From Nectonema munidae (lineage: Eukaryota; Nematomorpha; Nectonematoida; Nectonematidae): a stretch of DNA of 64,000 nucleotides. The DNA is taken from positions 62,001-126,000 of the forward strand of contig JAUIRK010000035.1 of assembly GCA_030549495.1 (NCBI GenBank). The letters run 5' to 3'. Below are positions 5,096 through 60,100 of the stretch, piece after piece. The number at the start of each line of letters is the position of its first letter. Positions within the stretch are counted from its first letter, which is position 1. The position numbers were made by a program, and so were the translations under genes. The notes under the pieces are model-generated. The model saw only the letters and a list, made by a program, of their open reading frames with translations, had not been told where the DNA came from and ran no database searches.

Positions 5096-5481
<386 letters not shown>

Positions 5482-7741: not shown

Positions 7742-8319
7742 ATAAGAGCAAAGAATATGCGCTTTTCAAGCAATCAATTTTTGGGGAATAGGATAGTTCT
7801 TCATTTCTCATATAATAATCATTGTCATATCTTTCGATTTTTAAATTAAGAAAGCAAGTATTTTATTTTAAGACTAACATTTTCATTCATCGAGTTTAAT
7901 ATCATTTCTATTTACCTTAGATTTTAATATCTATAAGTTTCATATCAGTATTTAAGGCACAGTAAATTTTGAATCCAAAAAAAGCATTAACCTTAGAAGG
8001 ACGGAGTAGGGCTTTTTTTGGCTAGTAAATATTTAAAATCTCTTTTTCTGATAGAAAAATATAGCTAGTCGATATGCTAACTTGGTGGTATTTTATTTTT
8101 TTTAATGGGTTTTAAGGATAAAAAGAAATATAAAATTTTCACCACATGAAAAAATATTTATAGTAATTTATACGAAATTTAAATTTAACGCCATCTAAAA
8201 TTAATATGTTTTTATGAAAAACTTAAGTTGTAACCTTAAACAAGTTATAAAAATATAAATTTGAAGTGGATTTCAAATTTAGAATTTTTTCTAAGGATTA
8301 TTTTTGAAACACATGACGT

Positions 8320-8580
8320 TCGAAAATTTTATATTGTTCAATATTCAAAACTTTGTTTTCATAAATTTGTTTTCCATAGTGCAAAATATTATATATAAAA
8401 AATTAAAAAGAAAAACTATAATATTTTTTTTATTTACAAAGAAAAAAACAAACAAACGTATGATTATGTAGTTTTGTGAAAAAATTATATTGATCACTAT
8501 TCAAAACTTTGCTTTTATAAATTTATTTTTCTACAGTGCAAAATATTTTATAAAAAGTAAAAAAGATAAAAAAAATTAGA
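8320..8580. repeat. Direct duplication in the 5' flank of the piggyBac transposase gene
   Basis: The stretch at about 8325-8410 (ATTGTTCAATATTCAAAACT, then TTGTTTTCATAAATTTGTTT and a GTGCAAAATATT word) recurs at about 8488-8572 with scattered substitutions. The offset is roughly 160 bp, inside the element and upstream of the start codon. Confidence 0.6.
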
Positions 8581-9024
8581 TAAGCTTTTTAGATCGATTT
8601 GTTGAACAGCGCATGGTTGCGTACTTGAATAAAAAAATGAAGAGAATGGACTCTTTATTGAATTTGTGTCGTGGTATTATCTGGGTAATAAAAGACACAT
8701 CATACAACGCAGAAATAAATCAAAATATGAATTCAAACACAAAGAACTCTTACTTGATATTGATTTTTTATCAAGAATACGCATGCGGCTAGAGTGAACT
8801 CAATTGTTCCATTGACTACACGATCCATATATAATTGTCTACGCATTTGTTATCTTTTTTCTCACCACATTTGGTAAATAATTCCTTGGCATGAATGAAT
8901 AGTGAAGAAATCGCGTATAGATTACACAAAACTCTCTCTTGCTTTATTTGTGTATGTGTAATAATTCTTCCATTTCTTGACAAGCTTCATTTGGATTTCC
9001 TAAGTTACTTCGCAAAATTTTATT

Positions 9025-10501
9025 ATGAGCTTCTCAAGTTTTTATACAAGTAGTGATGAAGGAGAAACCTCTGGTTCTGACGTTTTTTCAAATAGTGAAT
9101 ATGAAATTCAAAATTCAGTTGATAGCGAAGGGCAAACAGATTCAAGCGATGAAGAAACAGCTCTTTGCGAAGATGTGTCCCTTGTAGCACCAGATGGAAC
9201 CCAATTTTTTTGGGAACCGAGAGAGATTTGTGGAAGAAGATCATCAACTAATATCATCTCAAGTAGACCAGGTCCAAAAGATACGGCAAAAAATTTGAAA
9301 GATCCTTTGAAAATTTTTAATCTTTTTTTCACTGAATCTCTTTTGAACCATATTTTTGTCTGCACAAAAGAAAGAATGAAAGAAAACTACAAGTAATTTT
9401 CTATTAGAAAACATTATTTAGTTAAATGTTTTTTTTTGTAGAAGTCCTAATTGTTTGTTGGAGAACTTCAAAAGTTTATATGAAAGGTTTTCAATGGAAC
9501 ATTTGCTAGCATACTTAGCCTGTATTCTTTACATTGGGCAGTCTAAAGATAAGCAGCTTGATGTCAAACATCTTTTTTCTGAAAAGTATGGAACCCCTTT
9601 TTTAAAAGCTGCAATCAGTAGAGACGTATTCATTCTTACCTTTATAAGATTTGATTCAAGAACTACAAGAAATAGTTCAGATAAATTAGCTCAGATAAGA
9701 TACTTACAAAATTTTTTCCTCGAAAACTTTCATAAATATTGGTCACCATCTAATTGCGTTACAATTGACGAGCAGCTCGTCAAGTATAGAGGCAGGTCAC
9801 CTATAAAAGTATACGACCCATCCAAGCCAGGTCGATATGGTATGAAAATTTATCACTGTGTAGACTCGTCCAGTTTTTTTGTTTTTTGTAGCGAAATTTA
9901 TGAAAGTGGTTTAGTGGACAGGGATCATTTTAAACCCAATAATATAGTAAAAAGATTGGTAAATATTTCTTGCTTACCGACCGGTATTGGTATTTATGCA
10001 GATAGGTTTTTTATGTCCCAGGATTTGTGTAATTGGGCCAAAAATCAAAACTATACAATCTGTGGTACGGTAAGAAGTAATAGAAGGTTCATGCCGCATG
10101 TAGTCCGTCCAGCGCATTTAAAAGGTCTGGGTTTGAATGATTGTGAGAGCAGATTTTTGTATTCAGAAACCTCTTCGTTAACAGTTTATATACCGGAAAA
10201 ACATTCTAAAAAAAACTTCAAACCAGTCTATGTGTTATCTAGTCAACATCTATCACAAATAGATACTTTTGGGCCCAGAAAAAAGCCTCAAACTATTCTA
10301 GATAATAGGTTTAAATCTGGAGTGGATGTTTTTAACAGAATGGCAAGAAATTACAGCTGTTATAAGTCTTCTAGACGTTGGCCAGTTGCAATTTTTACAA
10401 ATTTTCTTGATATTGCAGTTAATAATAGCTGGGTAATTATGGGAGCTAATGATTCAGATGCAAACCGTCAGTTTCAAGAGGAGGAAGAAAATGCTTTATA
10501 A
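9025..10501 (+). CDS. piggyBac transposase, two exons (9025-9392 and 9442-10501)
   Basis: This is a DNA-cutting transposase that moves TTAA-flanked elements. Exon 1 gives 122 residues with an acidic Ser/Glu/Asp-rich N terminus, usual for piggyBac. The 49-bp intron 9393-9441 has GTAATT at its 5' end and a T-rich TTTTTTTTGTAG acceptor, and splicing restores one frame of 475 residues. The three catalytic aspartates are visible: D232 in TIDEQLV, D310 in YADRFF and D418 in SGVDVF. The 78-residue spacing between the first two equals that of the classical enzyme. SSRRWPVAIFTNFLDIAVNN is the conserved block after the third Asp. The frame stops at 10499-10501, before the expected Cys-rich C-terminal domain, which lies downstream in another frame. 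The core looks functional; the whole protein probably does not. Confidence 0.85.
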
Positions 10502-10504
10502 AAC

Positions 10505-10764
10505 ACCTTTCTCTACTTTTAGCTGAAAAATGCATGTTGATTAGAAGTCAAAGTTCATTTACTCGCTTATCTACCAGAAACTTATTATCTTTTTACGGGT
10601 TTTTTGATGTTGACGAGAACCCAACTACATCAGTTCAACGAGGATATTGCTCCTTTATTGATTGTAAGCCAAGAAAAAGGGGAACACGAAAATGCAGTGT
10701 ATGTGGAAAATTCATTTGTAAAAGCCATACTTTATTTATGTGTAAAAAGTGCAGAAACACATAA
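10505..10764 (+). pseudogene. Cys-rich C-terminal domain of the piggyBac transposase, out of frame
   Basis: In the frame that includes the ATG at 10534, the sequence reads HLSLLLAEKCMLIRSQSSF, then a spacer, and ends RKCSVCGKFICKSH...CKKC before the stop at 10762-10764. This Cys/His-rich zinc-binding tail is the DNA-recognition domain that closes piggyBac transposases, and the leucine-rich lead-in is what normally joins it to the core. A single-base length change near 10495-10503 would explain the break, either a true deletion or a sequencing error. An alternative, a short intron here, is less likely because no good donor is visible. Confidence 0.65.
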
Positions 10765-10827
10765 TAATTGTAAATATTTACGAATTTTTTATTATAATAC
10801 TTGTGTGTTGTATTTTTATAATAGTTG

Positions 10828-10833
10828 AATAAA
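10828..10833 (+). terminator. Polyadenylation signal of the piggyBac transposase
   Basis: AATAAA lies 64 bases after the stop of the C-terminal domain, followed by a T-rich stretch. Position and sequence suit the 3' end of the transposase mRNA. Confidence 0.5.
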
Positions 10834-11263
10834 TGTTAGTTCATTTTTTTATATATTTGAAAAAAACTAAATATTAATCTATGATTAATATGCCTTTTTT
10901 GCATATGAAGTAGCGTTTGTTGAAATAATTTAACAATTTAAATTTTTTTCTTAGATATGTATATCTAATAAGTGTAAACGTTATGGAAGTTCGAATGCAA
11001 TTTTTATTTTTATTATAGATGACGTTAACTAAAACAAACTCTTTTTTTTATTATAGATGGCGTTAATTCTAAAATAAGTTTTTTGATTTTTTTCGTATAA
11101 AAAACATGGAAACATATCAAACTGAACAAAAACATTCTTAAAAGGACTTTGATATGCTAAGGCTTTATTAAAAAAAAGAAATATATTTTTTTTTAAATTG
11201 GAGTAAAACTCCCATTAACCGTCCTTAGTGTTGCTCTAAAAAGTTCCGTCCTGATAAGGTTAA

Positions 11264-15841: not shown

Positions 15842-17313
15842 ATTGACCAAATTTATTTTTGGCAACAAACTTTAAATTTAAATATTTATCTTCTTTGCAA
15901 CTTCTTTGCAAATAATGCAAAACTTTTACTGCTCTTTCAGCAATAATGTTTGTTCGTGGTATATCAATGTAGGACTCATCTTTTACCGAATGCCTTTTCA
16001 AGCACTTTTCAGCAGAAAAACACTTTGTTTTTTGAACACAACTGACAAGTTTTTCATAGTTTCCAGGATTGTATTTTTGGTCCGAAACCATATTTCTTGC
16101 CAATCAATGCAATAAAATAAGCAGGGATTTCTAATGCATTTAGGCAAAAGAAAATAAGCTATGAGAACAAAAATTGCTTTGGACTTCCATCGAGCATTCT
16201 GAATTGACGGTAAAGACTTCCACTCTATTTTGGGAAGTTTTCCACTTTTTTGAAAAATCTAAATCAAAGAGGAACCTGAAATTATCACAAATTCTTCAAA
16301 TAATTATAATTATTTTTTATTTCTCCTATAAGTTCATAATTTAAATAAGGACTCTTAGTTTCTTTGTTGATGTAAAAGTCCAAAACATGTCTAAGTACTC
16401 TATCTAAAATATGACGCTGACATCCGATGAATTGGGCTTTAACAAGATTCATTTTGAGCATTTCTTCTTGCAATCTAGGGACATCTCCTCTCCAACGACC
16501 AGTATTTCCGGCTGCAGTATCACATATTATCATCTTAATTGAAGACCAAGCATTGTTTTCATCAATCATTTTTTGATTCCTTTATATATGCTTTCAGCAG
16601 AGCCATCTTGACTTTTAAAAACTCCCAAATTCATTTTAAAGTGGGGATTCTGTAAACACACCATCTGATACTCTTCTCCATGTTTTAAGTTTTCCTTATC
16701 GTTGTATATTCTTTTACCATCGAAATGCAAACAAAAGTTCTTTCTCTTTGCAATAATTCTTTTACTTTTAGAATTTGTTGTTGTCCAAATTTGATCATTC
16801 TTTAAATATTCCAGATTGAGTAGGGGTCAGTAAATCTAATGCTTCTTGCAAAAGACTCATGCAAAGTTTAGAAGCTTTTCTAGTTGAAACAGATAAATCT
16901 GTAACCAGTTTAACTGATTGGGCAGTAGAGTTATTCATTTTTCTTTTTTTTTAAATGATTAAAAACTCTTCCTCATTTATATCTGAGTCAGTTGTTGACT
17001 GATCTGAGCTTTCATATTTTGTTAAAATTAACGTTTGATCGTTTGTATAACGTTGTCTTTTAGAAGGATGGATTGAAAGAAGAGGTGCAAGTTTCTTGGT
17101 TACATAGCCAATTTTTCCTCCGGGCTTTATTTGTTTTTGATAAAATAATTTATCTCCCATGCACAACCATAGTCCTTCTTTTTTTGTGATATCAAAAAGA
17201 GTGCTCTGCTGATTTTGAAATTCTTTCTTTGAATAACGAATATAGATACTAAAAAAGGAGTATAACATAAATTCATTGTCGATTAATTGAAGAAAATAAC
17301 TTTTTATTTTCAA
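15842..17313 (-). pseudogene. Unclassified transposase-like pseudogene (DTxxxNTG / HILDRVLRH family)
   Basis: On the minus strand, from 17313, blocks appear in order: PGGKIGYVTKKLAPLLSIHP, KLVTDLSVSTRKASKLC, IICDTAAGNTGRWRGD, FIGCQRHILDRVLRHVLDFY, then IEWKSLPSIQNARWKSKAIF, LIAYFLLPKCIRN, WQEIWFRTK and finally IDIPRTNIIAERAVKVLHYL. Frame changes and stops separate them. The block order (D-T-NTG, QHHILD-like, ARWNS-like, ISG/W-EIWF) recurs in anonymous multi-copy animal proteins that behave like transposon products, and the first Asp block looks like an RNase-H-like catalytic Asp; I cannot name the superfamily. Related copies are at 28.0 kb and 32-33 kb. It lies inside the RASGEF1-like intron. 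Confidence 0.6.
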
Positions 17314-27590: not shown

Positions 27591-27639
27591 TTAATTCTTG
27601 GGAATCAGAGCCCGCGCTAATCAAAAGCAGGTGTTGGGG

Positions 27640-27990
27640 GCGTAAAGTGCCCCCCCCCCCCCTATTTTTCTCAGATATTAGTAAGTTTTTATAAATATTT
27701 TTAATGTTATATATATATTTCAACAATGCTGAATTCAGTGGTGATGTCCATTTTTTTTTATCAAAATCAATCAAACCTATCAAAAATTGATTTATATTTG
27801 ACAGATCATCTCAAAAAGGAACTTTTTATACTTATATAAAGTTTTTTACAGATGTATACCCATTTTCAAATACGCTGAATTCAGTGGTGATATTAATTTT
27901 TATGAAAATCAATCAAACCTGTCAAAAAATTGATCTAAATGTGACAGCTCATTTCAAAAAGGAAGTTTTTATTTCTTTTACGACATTTTA
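27640..27990. repeat. Truncated copy of the satellite-bearing TTAA element (left end plus two satellite units)
   Basis: GTGTTGGGGGCGTAAAGTGC at about 27632-27651 and the following C run match the left end of the element at 34074. Two consecutive satellite-1 units then begin CTGAATTCAGTGGTGAT at about 27728 and 27871. The outermost CCCTATTA tip is missing and the array ends at about 27990. Confidence 0.7.
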
Positions 27991-31049: not shown

Positions 31050-31950
31050 TTTTAGTAAATTTATTAATTTTTTTTTCATTCCTGATTGATAAATTTCTTA
31101 TTTTGAATTGTGATAAATTCACAGTTTTTACTCATTTTATTGTTCTAATTTCACTTATGCTATAATTGATATAAAAATACATTTTTTTTCAAAAAATAAT
31201 ATATTGTAGCTATTTATAAAATGATTTTAAATGTTGCTTTATCAATTAATCAACTTTTTAACTGTTTCCTAATAAATTTTGCATAACATTCCAGTTATGA
31301 TAGCAATCCTATGTAAATCACGATAGAGGATTTGCATACCATCATATCAAGATAAGGGAAGCGTTTTTTACTTGCCCCTCATTATTTCAATAAGATACTC
31401 TATGATAAATTTAAATCAACAAATTGCAAACTATAGTAAGTATTTATATATAAATAGAAGTGTCTCTGAACACACACATACATATCTCTTTATTGCTTTT
31501 TGTTCAACAAAAATTAATGACAGCATTTACAAAATTTGAGCTAATTTCTTTGTTGAGTTTTAAAAAAACAGAAGTTTTAATATCTTCCAAATCCTCAAAA
31601 GGTTGGACAAAGGAGATCTATGGGTATGTAATTTTTAATCAATTGTAAATCAAATCAATCGATTTAAGTTAGTCTTATAATTTTTGGCGTATCAAAAAAC
31701 AAACTTGTGCAGTAGGTATATGAAAGTTTTTTTATTTTTCTTTATAGCCCGTGGAGTTTTTATGCTCAAGTTAGAATAATATATAAAATTTTCTATTTAA
31801 CTTTAAAAAATTTCCACCTTGGACCGACAAACTCTTTTTCAAGTTTAAAAAATTCAATTTTATTTGATAAAACACCATGAATATATTAATATTATGAGTT
31901 TGTTAAAAGAAATTTAAAATGAACAAATCTTGCATCATTTTAATTGCACG
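31050..31950. other. Intergenic DNA, no feature seen
   Basis: AT-rich, with no coding or repeat feature that can be supported. Confidence 0.5.
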
Positions 31951-31959
31951 CTCGCCACA

Positions 31960-33130
31960 AATATTCGAATTGGTATAGGTGAAAGCTCTGTGCACCAGAA
32001 TTTACTCAATACATTCAAAGTTTTGGATGCTCTTTACAAGTTTCTGATAGATTATCAAAATCAGTAGGATTGAAATACTGAGCAGATAACAGATGTCAGC
32101 CCATGAACCACTTATGAAATCACATGCTGTTTCAGATATTTGTCGAAACTCTGGTAGCAAAATAAAAGCAATAAAGTATAAATTAATTAAATTTCAAAAT
32201 TGAAAAACAACTCGAATGTATAGGAAATTTTTTTTTATAATTTTTTCAATTTTGAAATTTAATTATCCTGATAAAACCAAGTTCAATTTTCAAAGTATAA
32301 ATTGCCATTGAGTTCCATCTTGCATTAATTAAAGCAGGAAGTGTTGGGAAATTCACTTTTGGAAAGCTTCCTGAACTTTTGAAAGATTATTGTAGCATGA
32401 TATTAAGTGATAAAAAAAGCCATGTCATCTCGCCACCGATCTTGTTTTTCATTCTTCATTGCTTTTCTGTATTTTTAAAAGAAGTCTTGAATTGCTCATA
32501 TTCTTCTGTTATAGTTAAAATAAATGAGTAACTAAAATTTGGAGAACTTGTTGATCCACCAAAATGATCATTTATAACATATTTCAGTAATGTATCAAAA
32601 ATATGACGTTGACGTCCAACAAATACAGGTATTTTTCTCCAATATCTTCAAAGTGTTTCTGCAACCTTGTCACTGCACTAAGACATCTTCCAGTATTTGA
32701 TGCAGTTTTGTCTGATAGAATCATTTTTATTTACGGCCAGAGTTCATATTCATCAAGCACAGTTTTTATTCGATTAAATATTCTCACCTTTTGGGTTGAC
32801 CAAACAAATATTGTCAACCTTTTGATTTCTATAACAGCAAGTCTCACCTCACTATTTTCATTTTTTAAAACGACTACTTGATACTCTTTCTTGTGTATAG
32901 CCTTTCCATAAGTGTAAGACCAATTTTTGCATTTTAAATTTTCTTTGAAGTTATTTTTCACCTTTTCTCCTTCTTTATCACAGCTTTATATACATCGCTT
33001 TGTGTTGGAGTAGGTACAGAAATCCCGCTTTCCGATAGTTTCACAAACCTTGTGAGCTTTTCTTGTACTTAATTTTGCTGCTGTCACTAAACGTACTGCA
33101 GAATGTTTTTTAGAGGTTCAAGGTTCCCTA
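31960..33130 (-). pseudogene. Unclassified transposase-like pseudogene, second long copy (DTxxxNTG family)
   Basis: The minus strand carries, in order, AVRLVTAAKLSTRKAHKVCE (about 33095-33036), an IHKKEYQVVVLKNENSEVRL segment (about 32900), ILSDKTASNTGRC (about 32730-32690), VGRQRHIFDTLLKYVINDHF (about 32620-32560), LPALINARWNSMAIYTLK (about 32360-32310) and WRACN-like residues near 31960. Most adjacent blocks are in different frames. Block order equals that of the copy at 15842-17313, but the sequences differ enough to be separate family members. It keeps part of the middle region that the other copy has lost. Confidence 0.6.
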
Positions 33131-33785
33131 AAATCTTCACTACTATTAGACTCTTCTTCACTTCTGTGAGAATCTTCTGTTTCCTAAATCTCATCACTAC
33201 TGATATTTTCAAAAGTCATTTGTGACTGCTGCTTTCATTGTAAGTAATTTCAGTTTTCATGGATGAATTCCTTGTGTATCTTCTTTTGTGCGACTACCTT
33301 ACCTTTTGTTGAAATCTGTAGGTCACAAAAATCCGTCTTCTCGGCACAACCATTCTTCTTTCTCATCTGTTATATTAAACATCTTAGTAAAATCATAGGT
33401 CTTCGATTATGTTTTTCAAACTTTTTTTTATCACATTTTCAACTGTTGATTTGTCTTTTTGAATTGGTAAGTTTAGTTTTCTCCATAAGAGTTTTACTTC
33501 GCCCGCTATATTTACTAATCTTTCTTTTTGCTTTTTACAAAACAAGTTAAGGTTTTATATCTTTCTAAGATATGTTGTTCCATTGGAATTTTTGCATTTG
33601 ATCAAGACTGTCAATATAATGTCTTTTCTTGACGTTTTGCATTTTTGAAGCTGCAGCATGTTTGATGACCAAATTTTCATGTTACTTTCTGAAGAAGATG
33701 CGTTTTTTTACATTGCAACTTTCTAGTTTAATTCACAAAATTACATATTTTATTTAGTAAAATTTTCTGAAAGAGAAAAAAATAA
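33131..33785. other. Probable upstream part of the same decayed element, not resolved
   Basis: Ser/Glu-rich minus-strand coding-like residues continue upstream of the pseudogene (around 33130-33200), but no further family motif can be placed. No terminal repeat was found. Confidence 0.25.
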
Positions 33786-33789
33786 AAAT

Positions 33790-34069
33790 AACATTACGAT
33801 ATTCAGGATTGTACTTGAAAATGGGTTTACATGTGTAAAAAACCTTTTATAAGTATTTAAATAAAATTTTAATTTTGACATGGTATGTCATATTCAAATC
33901 ATTTTTGACAAGTCGGATTCATTTTGATAAAAAATAAACATCACCACTAAATTCAGCAAACTTAATTATAAAAAAATCTTTAAAATCTGAGGAAAACAAG
34001 GGGTGGAAAAAAAGCTCCGCGATCTTCAAAGTCACTTGAGCGGACAAATTTTGCCCACTACTAATAGGG
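33790..34069 (-). mobile_element. TTAA-element end, inverted neighbour of the 34074-38350 element
   Basis: Read on the minus strand from 34069 it begins CCCTATTAGTAGTGGGCAAA and continues into one diverged satellite-1 unit (CTGAATTTAGTGGTGATGTT at about 33958). The other end was not found, so the element is incomplete or strongly diverged. It shares the central TTAA (34070-34073) with the next element. Confidence 0.55.
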
Positions 34070-34110
34070 TTAACCCTATTAGTGTTGGGCAAAATTTGTC
34101 CGCTCAAGTG
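34033..34110. repeat. Near-perfect palindrome, 37-bp arms around TTAA
   Basis: Arms 34033-34069 and 34074-34110 are inverse complements with two mismatches, centred on TTAA (34070-34073). Each arm starts, next to TTAA, with CCCTATTAGT. This is what two TTAA-type element ends sharing one target site in head-to-head orientation would look like. Confidence 0.85.
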
Positions 34111-34139
34111 CTGGGGGGGGGCGTAAAGTGCCCCCCCCT

Positions 34140-35670
34140 ATTTTTCTCAGATATTAATAAGTTTTTATAAATATTTTTAATGTTACATATATATTTCAAC
34201 TATGCTGAATTCAGTGGTGATGTCCATTTTTTTTATCAAAATCAATCAAACCTGTCAAAAAATTAATTTATATTTGACAGCTCATCTCAAAAAAGAACTT
34301 TTTATTTAAATAATTATATAAAGTTTTTTACACATGTATACCCCTTTTCAAATATGCTGAATTCAGTGGTGATATTCATTTTTTATGAAAATCAATCAAA
34401 CCTGTCAAAAAATTGATCTAAATGTGACAGCTCATTTCAAAAAGGAACTTTTTATCTAAATAATTATATAAAGTTTTTTACACATGTATACCCATTTTCA
34501 AATATGCTGAATTCAGTGATATTATTCATTTTTTTATAAAAATCAATCAAACCTGTCAAAAAATTGATCTAAATGTGACAGCTCATCTCAAAGAGGAACT
34601 TTTTATCGAAATAAGTATATAAAGTTTTTTACACATATATACCCATTTTCAAATATACTGAATTCAGTGGTGATATTTATTTTTTATGAAAATCAATCAA
34701 ACCTGTCTAAAAATTGATCTAAATGTGACAGCTCATCTCAAAAAGAAACTTTTAATCTAAATAATTATATAAAGTTTTTTACACATTTATACCCATTTTC
34801 AAATATGCTGAATTCAGTGGTGATATTCATTTTTATGAAAATCAATCAAACTGTCAAAAAATTGATCTAAATGTGACAGCTCATCTCAAAAAGAAGCTTT
34901 TAATCTAAATAATTATATATGTTTTTTACACATACATTTTCAAGCATGCTGAATTCAGTGGTGATATTCATTTTTTTTTTATAAAAATCATTCAAACCTG
35001 TCAAAAAAGTGATTTACATATGACAGCTCATCTCAAAAAAGAAACCTTTTATCTAAGTAATAATATAAAAATTGATCTAAATGTGACAGCTCATCTCAAA
35101 AAGAAGCTCTTAATCTAAATAATTATATAATGTTTTTTACGCATCCATTTTCAAGCATGCTAAATTCAGTATTCAAAACTGTTAAAAAAGTGATTTACAT
35201 ATGACAGCTCATCTCAAAAAAGAAACTTTTTATCTAAGTAATAATATAAAGTTTTTACACATATATACCCATTTTTAAGCATGCGTAATTCAGTGGTGAT
35301 ATTTATTTTTTTATGAAAATCAATCAAAACTCAAAAAATTGATTTATTCCAAAAAGAAAGGATCAGTCACGGTTTTTTGAATTAGAGAATTACGTTTAAT
35401 AGAAAGTATAGGGAGATGATGAAGTTTACCGTGTATGGTATTTTACACACATATACCCATTTTCAAGTAGGCTGTGTTTACTGGTTATATTCCTTTTTTT
35501 TTATTATAAAAAATTAGTCAAACTTGACAAAATAATTTAAATATGACAGCCCATGTCAAAATTAAAATTTTTCTTCTTATAAAAAGTTTTTATACATTTT
35601 AAGTATGTAGAATTTAATGGTGATGTCATTTTTTATGAAATCAATAAAACCTGTCAAAAAATCGATAATT
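34140..35670. repeat. Satellite 1: about ten units of roughly 150 bp
   Basis: Units are marked by CTGAATTCAGTGGTGAT followed by ATCAATCAAACCTGTCAAAA, GTGACAGCTCATCTCAAAAA and CACATGTATACCCATTTTCA. Unit starts are at 34205, 34357, 34507, 34658, 34808 and 34949 (spacing 141-152 bp), then more diverged or partial units near 35159, 35283, 35470 and 35608. Divergence rises toward the right edge. Confidence 0.85.
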
Positions 35671-35674
35671 CACT

Positions 35675-36699
35675 CAAAATATTTCATTTTACAGTAACAT
35701 ATGTAACTCGATAGGACCTCCATCTTTTTGGCTACAAATTCGTTATCCACTTGTAGTCTCTACGTCATATTATAATTTACAGTATATAATTTTGTTATTC
35801 ATTCCATGATGATCCTTTCTTGGTAGCTCTTTTTTCATTAGAAATTTATATTCTTCAAAGTGTGTTCGAAAATTTTTTTATAATCATAAAATTACTTTTT
35901 TCCTCTCTCAAAGCATTCTCATTAAAGAATCTTCTTGATGATCTTAGATTTTTTTATCAGTATCGTGTATTTTATTATCAGGCCTGAATATTTGTCAACC
36001 AATCTCATTTCAAAGGTTTTTTCTGATGAATCATTAGTGATGTTCATTGTTCAATTAAAAAAAGTTGTCCACGTTCTTCATCTAAAAAATTATTTCTTTC
36101 ACGCAAAAGGAAAAAGATGGACAAATTCAATTTAAATTAAAAATATCTTGATAGTGATTAATTCTCACATATTGGCATCTGTGCCATTTTTGATAAATCT
36201 GACCTATTCTAAATTTTCAGATTTCCTACACATCTTAGCTAAATTTTAATTGTAATCCTATATGATAAGCTATAGATTTAAATATTTTTCATATGTAAAA
36301 TAGGAACTTCTTTTACAAATGAAAAAATCTTTTTGGAGCATCTATTATATAATTAAACCACTTCCTAGTTCATTAGAACATGGTAGATGTTCCATTTAGT
36401 CAAGATACATATTTTTTTTAATTATTTGTTTTGATCACATGTTCTCTTTTCAATTAGTTTTCAACTTCGTTCCTTCTCTCATACAAATTTTCAAAAGATT
36501 TTATAATACGTTTTGTTACTCAAGATGATTGTAGAAAGTATTATAAGCCAAAATACACAAAAAAAAAGTATATTTTCACTATATATATAATATGCAGCCA
36601 TTTTTTGAAATTTTTTACAGAACTGATTTTCAGGCATACATTACTAATTAAATTGCCACTTCGAGATATTTTTTAACCGTATTATCCAAAATCCAGTAC
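35675..36699. other. Non-satellite spacer inside the 4.28-kb element
   Basis: AT-rich DNA between the two arrays with no coding frame longer than about 66 codons and no recognised motif. Confidence 0.4.
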
Positions 36700-37960
36700 A
36701 GAAATAAAATAAACATAGTCGATTTGGTATAAAACAGATATTTTATTTTTTTGAAAAAATTTTTTAAGACAGTATCTAGAAGTAAATCGCAAATCTGATT
36801 GAAGCTTTCAGATATTTTAAAACCATAAATGCCAAAACTGAGTCCAAAAATGAAACCAGCATCTTCTATTTGGCATAAACAGATATTTTATTTAAATTTC
36901 AAAAATATTTCTGTAGACATTAGACGTAAATCGAAGATTTGATTGATACTTTCAGACATTTAAGACCTCTAAATGCAAAAAATAATTTCAGAAATAAAAA
37001 TTATCATGGTCGAATTGGTATAAAAACATATATTTCATGTAAAATTAGAGAGAATATTTTGGGATATAGTTTTACGACATAAAGCGCAAATTTGATTGAC
37101 ACTAGCAGTAAAACCTCTAAATGCGAAAACTGTGTTCAGAAATGAAATCACCATGATCTATTTGCTATAAAAACATATATTTCATGTAAAATTTGAATCA
37201 ATATTTTTGAAAACAAATTTTAGAACTAAACGCAAATTTGATTGATACTTATAGGTATTTTCAAATTCAAACTGCAAAAATTGAGTTCATAAATGAAACT
37301 AGCATGGTTGATTTGGTATAAAAATATATATTTAATTGTAAAATTTGAATGAATGTTTTTGGAGAGAATTTTTAGAAGTAAACCGCAAATTTTTTTCACA
37401 TTCTAAATGTAAAAAATGAGTTCAGAAATGAAAACAGCATGCTTGATTTGGTATAAAAACATTTATTTCATGTAAAATTGAGAGAATATTTTTGGAGATA
37501 GCTTTTAGAAGTAAACCGCAAATTTGATTGACATTGACAAATATTTTAAAACCTCTAAATGTGAAAAATGAGTTTAGAAATGATAACATCATGGTTGATT
37601 TGGTATAAAAACATATATTTCATTGTAAAATTTGAATGAATGTATTTGGAGACAATTTTTAGAAGTAAACCGCAAATTTAATTAACACTTATAGGTATTT
37701 TCACATCCTAAACGTAAAAAATGAGTCCAGAAATGAAACCAGCATGGCTGATTTAGTATAACAGATATATTTCATTGTAAAATTTGAATGAATGTTTTTG
37801 GATATAATTTTTAGAAGTAAACCGCAAATTTGTTTAACACTTATAGGTATTTTCAAATCCTAAATGTAAAAACTGAGTCCTGAAATGAAACCAGCATGAC
37901 CGATTTAGTATAAAAACATATATTTTATGTAAAATTTGAAGGTATATTTTATTAGATAGA
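36700..37960. repeat. Satellite 2: nine units of roughly 150 bp
   Basis: Units are marked by GATTTGGTATAAAAACATAT, then TTAGAAGTAAACCGCAAATT, GATTGACACT and GAGTCCAGAAATGAAACCAG. Markers lie near 36721, 36866, 37012, 37156, 37310, 37445, 37596, 37750 and 37902. The unit length is similar to satellite 1 but the sequence is unrelated. Confidence 0.85.
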
Positions 37961-38354
37961 TTTTTAATCAATCAAAATTTTGATTGACATTTTCTAAAAA
38001 GTAGCCATGATTATTGAAAAAATTAAATATATAAAGTGTTATGCGTTCCAAACTGTATATAATTATAAATTTTCAGGGTATTATATAATATAGATCCTAA
38101 GTTATAAGGTTAAGTACAGATAATGTCAAAATTTTGCTGAAAAATTTTAATTTTTGATTTTGATTGACAGTTTTGGACATGCAAGGGTCATTCAACTACC
38201 ATCAAAATGGTTTCAAAAGATGCAGTTAGCGATTTTAGGAAAAGTCACAAAATTTGAAGGGATATTATTCAGCCAATTTTCTACAATTAATTTTTTAGCG
38301 AAGGGGGGGGGGGGGGGTTTTACGCCCCCCCCCCCCCAGCACTAATAGGGCTAA

Positions 38355-38910: not shown

Positions 38911-39758
38911 TTATCTACATCCACAGGCATCTACAACCATGTCCTCAAAAGTTCTCATTCTCGACACCTCGGTGTCCATGTAGAGGAGAACGATGGGGCT
39001 GAGAGAAGTGGCGACGCAGCACGCAGAAGGCACAAAGTGCGGATACATAGAGTGCATTACGGTCTGTAGGATGGAGTGGTTCGTGCTGTTGTCGTTCAGG
39101 GTATACGGAAATTGGCAGGGGCCGGAGCAGTAGTTGGCGTAGTAGCCCGGGGGAGCTATGATCCAATCATAAGAAAGATCTGCAAAGCGAATATACAGAT
39201 CCTTCTTTTGACAATGGATCCCCCTTCGCCGGCTGCGCTTAAGAGACTTGCGATTTCTTCGAATGCGTTGCGAGATTGGGATTTTGGAATAGGATGCATC
39301 TCTGCTATACACCATGACATTCGGCTGAAAATTCATCCATTCCTCTTCAGGAGATAGAGAGCGCTTCATTCTTGCGTGATTTTTATCATGACATGCGGCA
39401 TTTTGAGACTTCACTTTAATGAATAAACCTTTGTTATGCAAGTTTTTATTATCACTCCACTTTTGGAAAATTTTAGCAATGTTGAATGATAGCCATTTCG
39501 ATTCTTTGAGTGATACTGTAAGCTGATCAAGTTTTGTTAGATTATCACTTTGAAACTTTTCAAGAGAGGAATGAGGATAAGGTTCGTAGATTTCAACGAT
39601 ATGATTCGCTGTTCTGCACTCATGAGAAGTAAATTCATTGGTTAAGAAAATTCTAAGCTCTGCAGCTACCAAAATTTCTTCTGGAGATTTATGTGAGGAG
39701 TTGACTATAAAATGAAAGAACGTTTCATTTTGCAAAGGCACGTGTTTGACTTTTACTC
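38911..39758 (-). CDS. BMP-family TGF-beta ligand, exon 2 (prodomain end and mature ligand)
   Basis: This encodes residues 162-443 of a secreted signalling ligand that would dimerise and bind type I/II Ser/Thr-kinase receptors. After the minus-strand acceptor ATTTAG the prodomain continues (FFHFIVNSS, AAELRIFL, IVEIYEP, WLSFNIAKIFQKWS, KGLFIKV), a BMP2/4/Dpp-like order. Basic convertase sites follow: RMKR at 291-294, RIRR at 326-329 and KRSRRR at 335-340. The mature domain has all seven knot cysteines (344, 372, 376, 408, 409, 440, 442), with DWIIAPPGYYANYCSGPC, NSTNHSILQT (an N-glycosylation site), SACCVA and the terminal DACGCR. The usual first Trp before DWI is Tyr. BMP2/4/Dpp is the nearest look, but paralogy is not settled. 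Confidence 0.9.
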
Positions 39759-40192
39759 CTAAATTAATGGATTACATTTTAAAAACAATGATTTACACAT
39801 GAGTAGAATCAAATGGTTGTAGTCAAAAAGGCATGCCCATGACGAACCATTTAAGTCATAGAGTTGCCATTAACTATTAAAGCAATATATTTTGGGCATT
39901 AATAAAACAAAATTACATTCGATCATCTTAAATTTTTTTAGATGAAGATCGGTATTTTAGCATCTTGAAATTAATTCTAGAAAAATAAGGATGCTTAAAA
40001 AGAAAGAGTTGTTAAAATGTATGGACTCATAATTTTTAGTATTTGCTGTAAATTAACTTTTTCTGTAATATCCACGCCAATTCAAAACGTCTACTCACTA
40101 ACACAAGATTAAATCAAAGTCAAAATCAAAAAATTAATGAAATGAGGAGTAGCAAATTTGACCAGATGAATAAGTAGAAGGAAATGACTTAC
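39759..40192 (-). other. Intron of the BMP-like gene
   Basis: 434 bp, GTAAGT donor and a T-rich ATTTAG acceptor, phase 1. AT-rich, no repeat recognised. Confidence 0.8.
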
Positions 40193-57189: not shown

Positions 57190-60100
57190 TTTCGTGCCTG
57201 TGTATATTTTACTTTTGATACTTTTTCTTATTTTACATAAGTTCTTTGCCGATTTAAATAAATTTTTATGAATTAAATTGAAAAAAACTTTGGTATTGAA
57301 AAATAGTTACTTATTAGTACATTTTCAAAAAAGAATTAATCAACCAAAATTTATGCTTGTTGCTAATCTTCTAATTTTATATGCAGATTTTTCAGCTTTT
57401 AACAAATCGGGTATAACGAATTTCTTATAAAGCGAACATATTCTATCCGTTCCTTTAAAACTTTATGAAATTTCTTAAAACTCCAGTTATTATAAAATTT
57501 TATTTTAACCGAGTAAATATTTTTAAAAAAAAATTAAATAAATTTTGACAAAAGGACAAAAATTTTTCCGTCATTGTAGTTTCCACTTCTAAGACAACTG
57601 CTCTTCAACTAATCATGATAATGGAGATTGTTGAAAGACGCAAAAAGTATATATAACATTTTTATTATTATTTCTTTTCTTTCTTAAGAAAAGAATTTTA
57701 TAGTTAAGGCTTCAAGATTGTTTTTTCGAGGAGACATTTTTTTCTATTCAAGAATGAAGAAAGAAATAAAAATAAATAGAAAAATGTAGCGAGGTTATTG
57801 AAAATCTTTTGAGGTAAAAAGGAAGCCATAAAATTTGGTATTAAGTAAACAGCATGCTCATGCTATTTATTAGCTCATGTAGTTCTTGAAACACGCAACA
57901 CTCACTCTCTTGTGTAGAGATTTTTAATTTAATGGAAACAAATGACTCGCTCGTGCTGAAAATTTCATTTTCCTGTCATGATGCTTTATCAATTATTATC
58001 AAATAAACTTTGTATGAAAGCTCATAAAATGATTCAAAACAATTATAATCAGAAAGGCGAACAAGTTTATTCCACTATAGTGAATACAGTATCCCCTAAT
58101 CTCATTTCTAGAGGGCTAACAATTAATTAAATTAAGTCTTTTCGCCCTTCAATAACTTGAGCTTGGTATACGGAGTTTTAGTTCTTAATTGTTTCACTGA
58201 CCAACCATTTCGCCATCATAGTAATTCCGGCTTTCATGTCATTTTAGCAATTATTTTTTGTAACTTTTTATAAGAAATAAATACAAAGAAGAAAAATATG
58301 GACAGTAGATTGATTTAAAAAATTCACTCCGCCCCTCGTCAAAAACTTCAAAATTGTGTGACCTTGATATGATAGAGATCTCTTTAACTTCCTTCACTCC
58401 CCTGTTAAAAGGGATGAGACTATGATCGCTTCTTGAGCGAGTCTTTTTTCAATCTGATCTTATTTCTGAAGTTGACTAAATGTGGGTTTGGATCAGTTTG
58501 TAGAAAAATAGGATTTGACCAAATTTAACCGTTTTTGATCGAATTTCAAAGCGTTTGAGTAAATATTTTCCAATTTGACATACATTTTTTTATCTCATTA
58601 TAAATAAGACTCAGAGTTCTTTACTTTACCTCTAATTTTGTCTGTATAAACTATTCAGAAAACTTACCAACATAATTTATTCAAAATACTATCATTGAAA
58701 AATGATTTACATGCTATTAATTTCAACTTTTCAAATAATTAAAAAAAATTTTAAAGTATGTTTATCCTTTTAACGTTTTTCCAATTGGAAATGTATCTTT
58801 TGAAAATTATAAACATAAAATCATATAGATAAATCTGAAAGATATTATACAGAGGATAATGATGATAACCTCACCTTAAACAATTATAAATTTTCCATCT
58901 TTATTTATAGCTATTGTGTTCTTCAATATTCTATAAACATGGTTTAGAATTGGGGTTAGTGATATAAAAATATATTATTATTCAATATTATAAATTAGTG
59001 ATAGCATCAAGGAGTTTTTTGTTTTCTTAATTTTTTTTTTAGTTTTTTTAAGTACTTAATTTAGTTCTTGTTTTCGAAAGGTTTTGTTTCAGATGTTTCC
59101 ACCAGGAATCAAATTGTGGTAGTTGTTTCTATGGTTAGTTTCATTTTTATCTAAATTTTATTTGAGTATACTTTTCCTTAAAATTTTTTACTATGAGACA
59201 AAATGGCGTTTTTTAATCAGTTATAGTTAATTATAAATGAAAAATAGAGTTATTAAGCTGTCAAGGTTTATTTTTTATTTCAACCTTTCAAAAACCATGA
59301 AATAAAAATTATTTCTCAAATTTTATTATTCTATTTTACTCATTTGTTCACTTAGTTCGAAAAACATATCTTATTAATTTAGTTTCTTCAGCTAAAATTT
59401 TTGAGTTAGAAATTGGTGCCCATTTGTTATCAATTTGTAACTGAAGAACCATAAATTTTATTTTTAATAAAGACAGTGTCACATATTCTTCAAAATGTTA
59501 CATTCACATGCTTTATAATATTTTATGACATGAATCTCAAAAGGTATGATAAGAAAAAAAACTTTATTCCCAGTCATGTAAAGTACATTATTTCTGATCA
59601 AATAGAAATGACCATTATTGATCTAATTTTTACACATGTTGGAATATGGTTGCTTTGTGAAAATGGCATAGATTAGACTAAAAGTAGTTAAACACAATTA
59701 ATACATCACATCTGTTCAAATCCTTTGTTATTTAATCAACCCCTTTAAATTTGGTAATATTCGCTCTAATTTGGTTAAATCCCGATTTTAATGCACCCTT
59801 TAGTGTCTTCCATTCAGACGGTTATGACGATATCATATCTGAACATTTAGATTTAGGGTGTTAAAAATATATTCACAATGAAATTGAGCATTATGAAAGC
59901 CAATTTGATGACAGGCGAAATTTGGAAAAAAAGAACTGTGCCAAAAAGGCAGCCCATCCATCAACTAGGAATCAAAAATAGTCCGTCATGTGCACTAATA
60001 TATTGATGAGAGAGCATTTTTGTATATAAAATCTTTGACAAAAGCTCTTTTCAATTTTATTACTTTATTTTAAATTTATAAAAAAATATTTCTTAATCTT

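Follow-up and report, generated by a model that had tools for sequence, protein, structure and literature searches.

How are satellite DNA families scattered through genomes? This is an open question, and it is raised in a tangible form by a non-coding element of 4.28 kb, flanked by TTAA or a near match to it and built around two tandem arrays, at positions 34074-38350 of a 64,000-nucleotide stretch of the nematomorph Nectonema munidae (GenBank assembly GCA_030549495.1, contig JAUIRK010000035.1, positions 62,001 to 126,000; the whole stretch is referred to here as the window). An earlier note, made from the letters of the window alone, had proposed a non-autonomous piggyBac-type carrier that spreads satellite DNA. 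Computational analysis of the window and of the assembled genome argues that the element is probably a DNA transposon of the cut-and-paste kind, non-autonomous and with ends of piggyBac type, which scatters preformed satellite arrays. The core of the proposal, a TTAA-targeting element that spreads such arrays, is borne out by the tips, the TTAA sites and the unit types common to different copies.

Architecture of the Element

As read from the sequence, the element is bounded by inverted copies of the 11-bp tip CCCTATTAGTG, recognized by motif matching in the window and genome-wide, one at 34074-34084 on the forward strand and the other at 38340-38350 on the reverse strand; three matches with at most one mismatch occur within the window, a number reached in 1 of 100 shuffles. 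The left flank is TTAA (34070-34073) and the right flank is CTAA (38351-38354), a single change from TTAA. A G run, GCGTAAA and a C run are found near each end, and they form a GC palindrome at 34113-34138 on the 5′ side (G run, CGTAAAGTG, C run), which folds as a hairpin, and another at 38303-38337, immediately inboard of the 3′ tip, where an idealised 3′ end likewise folds as a hairpin. The ends do not mirror each other: on the 5′ side there are 26 extra bp, and AGTG is directly repeated, with copies at positions 34081 and 34107 (34081-34110, forward strand, 26-bp spacing), whereas the 3′ end has it once.

Between the ends lie, all on the forward strand, the satellite 1 (sat1) array (about 34194-35596), defined by repeat and unit matching, with 7 units that match along 85% or more of the unit, together with partial and diverged ones; a middle non-repetitive region without coding capacity (35597-36766); the satellite 2 (sat2) array (about 36767-37925), with 8 matched units; and a 3′ region (37944-38302). 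The interior holds no open reading frame (ORF) of at least 110 amino acids. The inverted tips, the G and C runs, the flanks and the lack of coding capacity are therefore as first described, and so is the unit length of about 150 bp, since the majority-rule units of sat1 and sat2 are both 150 bp; the share of the element taken by the arrays had been overestimated at two thirds and is about 60% (about 2.56 of 4.28 kb).

Two relatives are found nearby. The first, more diverged, is a 5′ end on the reverse strand (33812-34069), head to head with the element, with a tip at 34059-34069 (one mismatch) and one sat1-like unit at about 33812-33963; the two abut across the single common TTAA at 34070-34073, the centre of a 39-nt inverted repeat (34033-34071/34072-34110). 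The other is the truncated relative that had been placed at 27.6-28.0 kb. It has two sat1 units and the GC palindrome (27634-27963, forward strand), with a hAT fragment coming next, and no tip is recognisable at about 27.64-27.96 kb.

Copies in the Genome and Insertion at TTAA

The search of the genome for the tips gave a strong signal: TTAA followed by the tip (at most one mismatch) occurs at 2,585 sites vs. 17 for the reversed control, and the 35-bp 5′ end (at most three mismatches) has 917 matches vs. none for the control. Among 30 loci gathered by similarity to the element, with 1.5 kb kept beyond each match, 12 bear both tips, the window copy counted, and more may be complete. These complete copies span 3.2-4.6 kb, end at the tips and hold sat1, the middle region and sat2 in constant order and orientation (12/12), with differing unit numbers and with TTAA on both sides in nine; shared arrays, TTAA flanks and differing unit numbers are the points that the earlier note had proposed to check. 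The middle region (35672-36713) is 90-97% identical to that of the other 11 complete copies (for L062 over 846 aligned columns only), and the 3′ region (37944-38273) is 96-97.5% identical in nine of these 11, whereas the last two reach 91% and 85%.

A fairer sample than the similarity-chosen copies is given by the first 30 exact TTAA-plus-tip sites listed, read 1.5 kb inboard, and sat1 or sat2 units were found at 27 of them. Four of the 27 (L034, L035, L037, and L038) are not independent, because their flanks are common to all four and they sit in one repeated segment of contig C9. On that contig (G000:C9:906-26504) TTAA-plus-tip sites recur every 12.08 kb with an identical 20-base flank, which suggests a tandem segmental duplication, or an assembly duplication, bearing element copies.

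Some copies without the middle region or without one array still have tips and TTAA. Two short copies chosen for exact tips have no sat2 and keep both tips and TTAA: L074, of 1.4 kb, with six sat1 units, and L075, of 0.7 kb, with some 1.5 sat1 units. The persistence of the ends thus seems to require neither array, though the losses may postdate insertion.

Exact TTAA adjoins 37 of 42 distinct exact tips that were not selected for TTAA. The earlier note had suggested looking for empty sites in other individuals; within the same genome such sites were found for one copy, L048, as paralogous members of a repeat: its flanks, joined with one TTAA, match uninterrupted sites on C632 (94%), C194 (93%), and C694 (96%, positions 12-276), as well as eleven further, more distant uninterrupted sites at 70-73% over the whole length, and its own locus matches the same query as two halves. 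By eye, the joined flank reads as reverse-transcriptase coding sequence, unbroken over the junction. Since the joined flanks match uninterrupted paralogous sites, the L048 copy is, on this comparison, an insertion at TTAA.

Element Ends and Superfamily Placement

To which superfamily do these ends point? In the common form of the 5′ end, AGTGCTGGG occurs twice, 26 bp apart, the second copy being joined to the GC palindrome (in the window copy the first repeat reads AGTGTTGGG), and at the 3′ end it occurs once, adjoining the palindrome. The palindrome of the 5′ side is thereby set 26 bp deeper into the element than that of the 3′ side. The palindromes are similar at both ends, with loops and run lengths that differ between ends and copies, and their sequence is not that of piggyBac. 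The terminal inverted repeat is 11 bp exact in the window copy, and several copies, L041 and L048 among them, have 16 bp (CCCTATTAGTGCTGGG) in common between their two ends; repeats of 12-19 bp are a criterion of the piggyBac superfamily.

A CC[C/T]T tip together with TTAA is described as the piggyBac hallmark (PMC2872659), and the tip of the element begins CCCT, with the TTAA duplication seen at the tips and empty sites described above. In piggyBac, identical 19-bp palindromes are located at asymmetric distances from the tips (PMC11707139), and asymmetric internal repeats or palindromes are also reported in PMC2874221. Kolobok elements also target TTAA, with 5′-RR…YY-3′ termini (PMC9587614), whereas those of the element are 5′-CC…GG-3′. 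Because of the TTAA, the CCCT tip and the asymmetrically placed GC palindromes, and because the Kolobok termini differ, we infer from end structure that the element is piggyBac-type. The same layout recurs in a second family (family B; L001, L002, L006, L025, and L032), which has the same 11-bp tip and TTAA with different inboard sequence: AGTG(A/G)CGG, about 25 bp and AGTGACGG follow each other, then a G run in L006, L025, and L032, and satellite-like units are fewer in the stretches read.

The search for a transposase partner was less rewarding. For the domain PF13843 (DDE_Tnp_1_7) the genome offers 6,798 candidates, of which the 116 that were scored hold 117 matches, many of them without stops. 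The downstream flanks of six of the 116 candidates were read, and among these there was no transposase bounded by CCCTATTAGTG: C82, C673, and C587 have plausible ends starting CCC beside TTAA, none of them CCCTATTAGTG, and C621, C472, and C638 have no clear end by the CCC/TTAA pattern. When ten PF13843 sites were compared with the tips listed on the same contigs, the nearest was 14 kb away. Tip-to-tip intervals of 0.7, 1.4, and 2.3 kb, considered as autonomous copies, turned out to be deletion derivatives with no transposase match (best E 1.2). The piggyBac-type label of the earlier note thus stands as regards end structure and lacks its transposase in the six flanks read.

It was considered whether the element might be a non-autonomous member of a different TTAA-targeting group, be it the Kolobok superfamily or a TTAA family as yet undescribed, served by a transposase other than piggyBac. 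TTAA alone cannot separate the superfamilies, since Kolobok also uses it (PMC9587614); Xmix, a TTAA element bearing tandem repeats, was assigned to Kolobok (PMC6004289); and the flanks just described yielded no partner. However, the 5′-RR termini of Kolobok contrast with the 5′-CCC of the satellite carrier, the asymmetric placement of the palindromes fits piggyBac (PMC11707139), and PF13843 transposases are plentiful in the genome, so that we regard this origin as unlikely.

The window also contains a complete-looking piggyBac element at 7991-11259 (PF13843, E 2e-41; TTAA on both sides), with open stretches at 9004-9396 and 9422-10501 that are parted, by eye, by an intron-like GT…AG gap. Because its tips are CCTTAGAAGGACGGA and CCTTATCAGGACGGA, it belongs to a family distinct from the satellite carrier. 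Short palindromes were also seen by eye between the stop of a PF13843 transposase and the presumed tip at L086, L087, L088, and L090, in several piggyBac families.

Satellite Units and the Spread of the Arrays

The closest relative of a unit mostly lies in another copy (67 of 72 sat1 and 81 of 85 sat2 units), and the best match of a unit averages 97% identity when it is sought in other copies, but 91% (sat1) and 87% (sat2) when sought in its own copy, in a comparison made without a shuffled control and with more units to pick from in the across-copy class, which weakens its weight for the favoured explanation. Unit types were defined by clustering at thresholds chosen by the analyst. In many copies the sat1 types begin with A, continue with a variable number of E and go on to F-I-J or G, an order from which L039, L041, L044, L048, L049, and L055 deviate; those of sat2 run roughly A-B-C-D-E-F-G-H with letters missing or repeated, L041 and L062 being the most divergent. 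Since units are mostly closer to units of other copies than to their own neighbours, the arrays would have been built in a master element and dispersed by transposition. The simplest account is that they predate dispersal and later vary through gain or loss of units.

Equal unit length in two arrays with unrelated sequence had been singled out earlier. In direct orientation the arrays are indeed unrelated (mean local score of sampled units 38.4 vs. 39.3 for shuffled ones). The inverted comparison is weak: when sat1 is aligned circularly to the reverse complement of sat2, the score is 37 vs. a shuffle mean of 24.6, and 37 is reached by 117 of 2000 shuffles, or by 190 of 2000 when either orientation is allowed, and the best E of the sat1 profile on reversed sat2 is 0.043. 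Sampled units give inverted mean local scores of 57.6 vs. 40.1 (sd 2.5) for shuffled ones, with a control that treats related units as independent. Family B lends no support, as 52, 86, and 98 of 300 shuffles reach its three cross-comparisons. Inverted kinship, which would account for the equal unit length, is thus only weakly suggested. By eye, the sat1 unit holds the palindrome CTGAATTCAG and a CTGTCA…TGACAG inverted repeat.

Might the arrays be more than passive cargo? Two independent arrays could have converged on a nucleosome-like unit of 150 bp and on a fixed order because the repeated subterminal units help or regulate the binding of the transposase or the element's chromatin. We consider this quite improbable.

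Free Arrays or Element-Borne Arrays

Another concern is whether the satellites are ordinary free arrays that lie by chance between TTAA tips or were repeatedly captured by them. A search with a sat1 dimer gave matches in 39 scored candidates of 769. Six sat1 arrays had their 5′ edge read, and four of them, on C351, C121, C538, and C318, begin at a tip (for C121, where the fetched stretch stops short, the tip at 57804-57838 is taken from the list of matches to the 35-bp 5′ end). In favour of free arrays, those on C555 and C711 have no tip within about 270-330 bases before the first unit; their 3′ edges, however, pass into the inner units or the middle region of the element, as would those of 5′-truncated elements. 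The list of arrays on contigs up to C268 reads similarly: 9 of 12 (C4, C77, C114, C121, C134, C213, C216, C226, and C238) have beside them a 5′ end without mismatch, or else a match that reaches back to the element's first base, and three (C58, C91, and C189) have no exact tip among the matches listed, which omit mismatched tips. Arrays longer than that of the window copy do exist, since on C351 the stretch that runs from close to the tip as far as 74500, still within the array, has sat1 matches over 2,973 of its 3,575 bases. The constant order and orientation of the arrays in complete copies and the unit types common by position speak against chance or repeated capture, which is therefore very unlikely. 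Satellites found mainly as free arrays, one of the results that the earlier note had named as fatal to its proposal, were not seen: none of the six sat1 arrays examined at their edges, a small sample, is free.

The hAT Neighbour

A broken hAT-type transposase lies beside the head-to-head relative (31915-33713, reverse strand; identified by sequence match to its family and by the fold of its relative P0030), and a second broken copy of the hAT-like family at 15855-17244 (reverse strand). The window transposase has no convincing Pfam or NCBIfam match, and none of eight relatives scanned in the P0030 family reached the Pfam cut-off; the structure model of P0030 (pLDDT 83) is closest in fold to the hAT transposase Hermes. 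Of 1,667 candidates for this family in the genome, the 74 that were scored hold 88 matches, and several of these have open frames. hAT transposons make 8-bp target duplications, and the element has the 4-bp TTAA. Two better-kept hAT copies have ends TAGGGGTATG and TAGGTATATG and 8-bp duplications ATGTATAC and CCAGACAT, one of them (L069/L070, G000:C392:42201-45050) being inserted within a sat1 array with the duplication ATGTATAC, i.e., as nested transposons. Although hAT coding remnants directly adjoin two relatives in the window, the different ends, the 8-bp duplications and the Hermes-like fold make it hardly credible that this transposase is the autonomous partner, and, judged from sequence and a modelled fold, it proved to be a nested passenger.

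Proposed Mechanism

In the proposed scheme of a piggyBac-type carrier, a transposase supplied in trans, presumably of the piggyBac family, would bind the tips and the GC palindromes, excise the element and reinsert it at TTAA. The two arrays of about 150-bp units would have arisen in a master lineage, as unit types are common to different copies, and would be copied to new sites along with the element. Unit numbers would change later, mostly among inner sat1 and outer sat2 units, and the units at the opposite edge of each array would stay recognisable in most copies.

Besides the failure to find a partner among the six flanks and the bias of the unit comparison, several observations weigh against this scheme. 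One flank is altered in 3 of the 12 complete copies (TTAA/CTAA, TTAC/TTAA, and GTCA/TTAA), and the window copy itself has CTAA on one side. Clear satellite units are missing inboard of 3 of the first 30 tips: L017 has none, L022 a weak partial match only and L029 the 3′ region only. Finally, the G and C runs range from none to 19 in length and are uncorrelated (r 0.20, n 34; r 0.07, n 25), so selection may not act on the hairpin itself.

Other Features of the Window

Near the right flank, 0.56 kb from the element, lies an ORF on the reverse strand (38911-39771) that we take to code for a TGF-beta/BMP-like protein, a mark of an animal genome. Another ORF, presumably RasGEF-like, has no match at E ≤ 0.001. 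At 5113-5466 a 239-base A tract is followed by G/A-rich tracts and adjoins an ORF with CCHC fingers.

Relation to Known Systems and Significance

The suggestion that this is an undescribed element type was too strong, because tandem repeats riding TTAA elements are already in print for Xenopus, namely Xmix and Xstir (T2-MITE; PMC6004289; reviewed in PMC12628747). Like the satellite carrier, these are non-autonomous, target TTAA and have an amplified internal segment that spreads with the element. However, the Xmix family has AGGRR termini and is assigned to Kolobok, whereas the carrier has CCCT tips, two different arrays and asymmetric GC palindromes. The piggyBac elements and their coral miniature relatives, CMITEs, have in common with it the TTAA duplication, the CC[C/T]T tip and short inverted repeats (PMC2872659), yet CMITEs are about 100 bp long and can form arrays of whole elements, and here the arrays travel inside an element of 3-5 kb as its cargo. 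Non-autonomous elements that contain satellite-like arrays or gave rise to them are also described, with Tetris, the central repeats of DINE/Helentron and miDNA4 as examples (PMC9659126; PMC12628747), and by their descriptions these are other element types. A TTAA element that carries two different arrays in a constant order was found nowhere in the literature searched, which comprised titles and the starts of abstracts of open-licence papers, outside Repbase and with partly incomplete listings. The satellite carrier exemplifies, clearly and with unusual richness, a known route of satellite scattering.

What does this mean for the spread of satellites? Judging from this element, piggyBac-type ends may carry a pair of satellites together. 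Should the arrays prove to be more than passive, the element would serve as an engine by which satellite arrays are selected, built and seeded, and thereby as a separate route of satellite origin. As many copies are bounded by tips and have identifiable unit types, the birth of an array, its spread by transposition and the later change of its unit number become separable in one genome.

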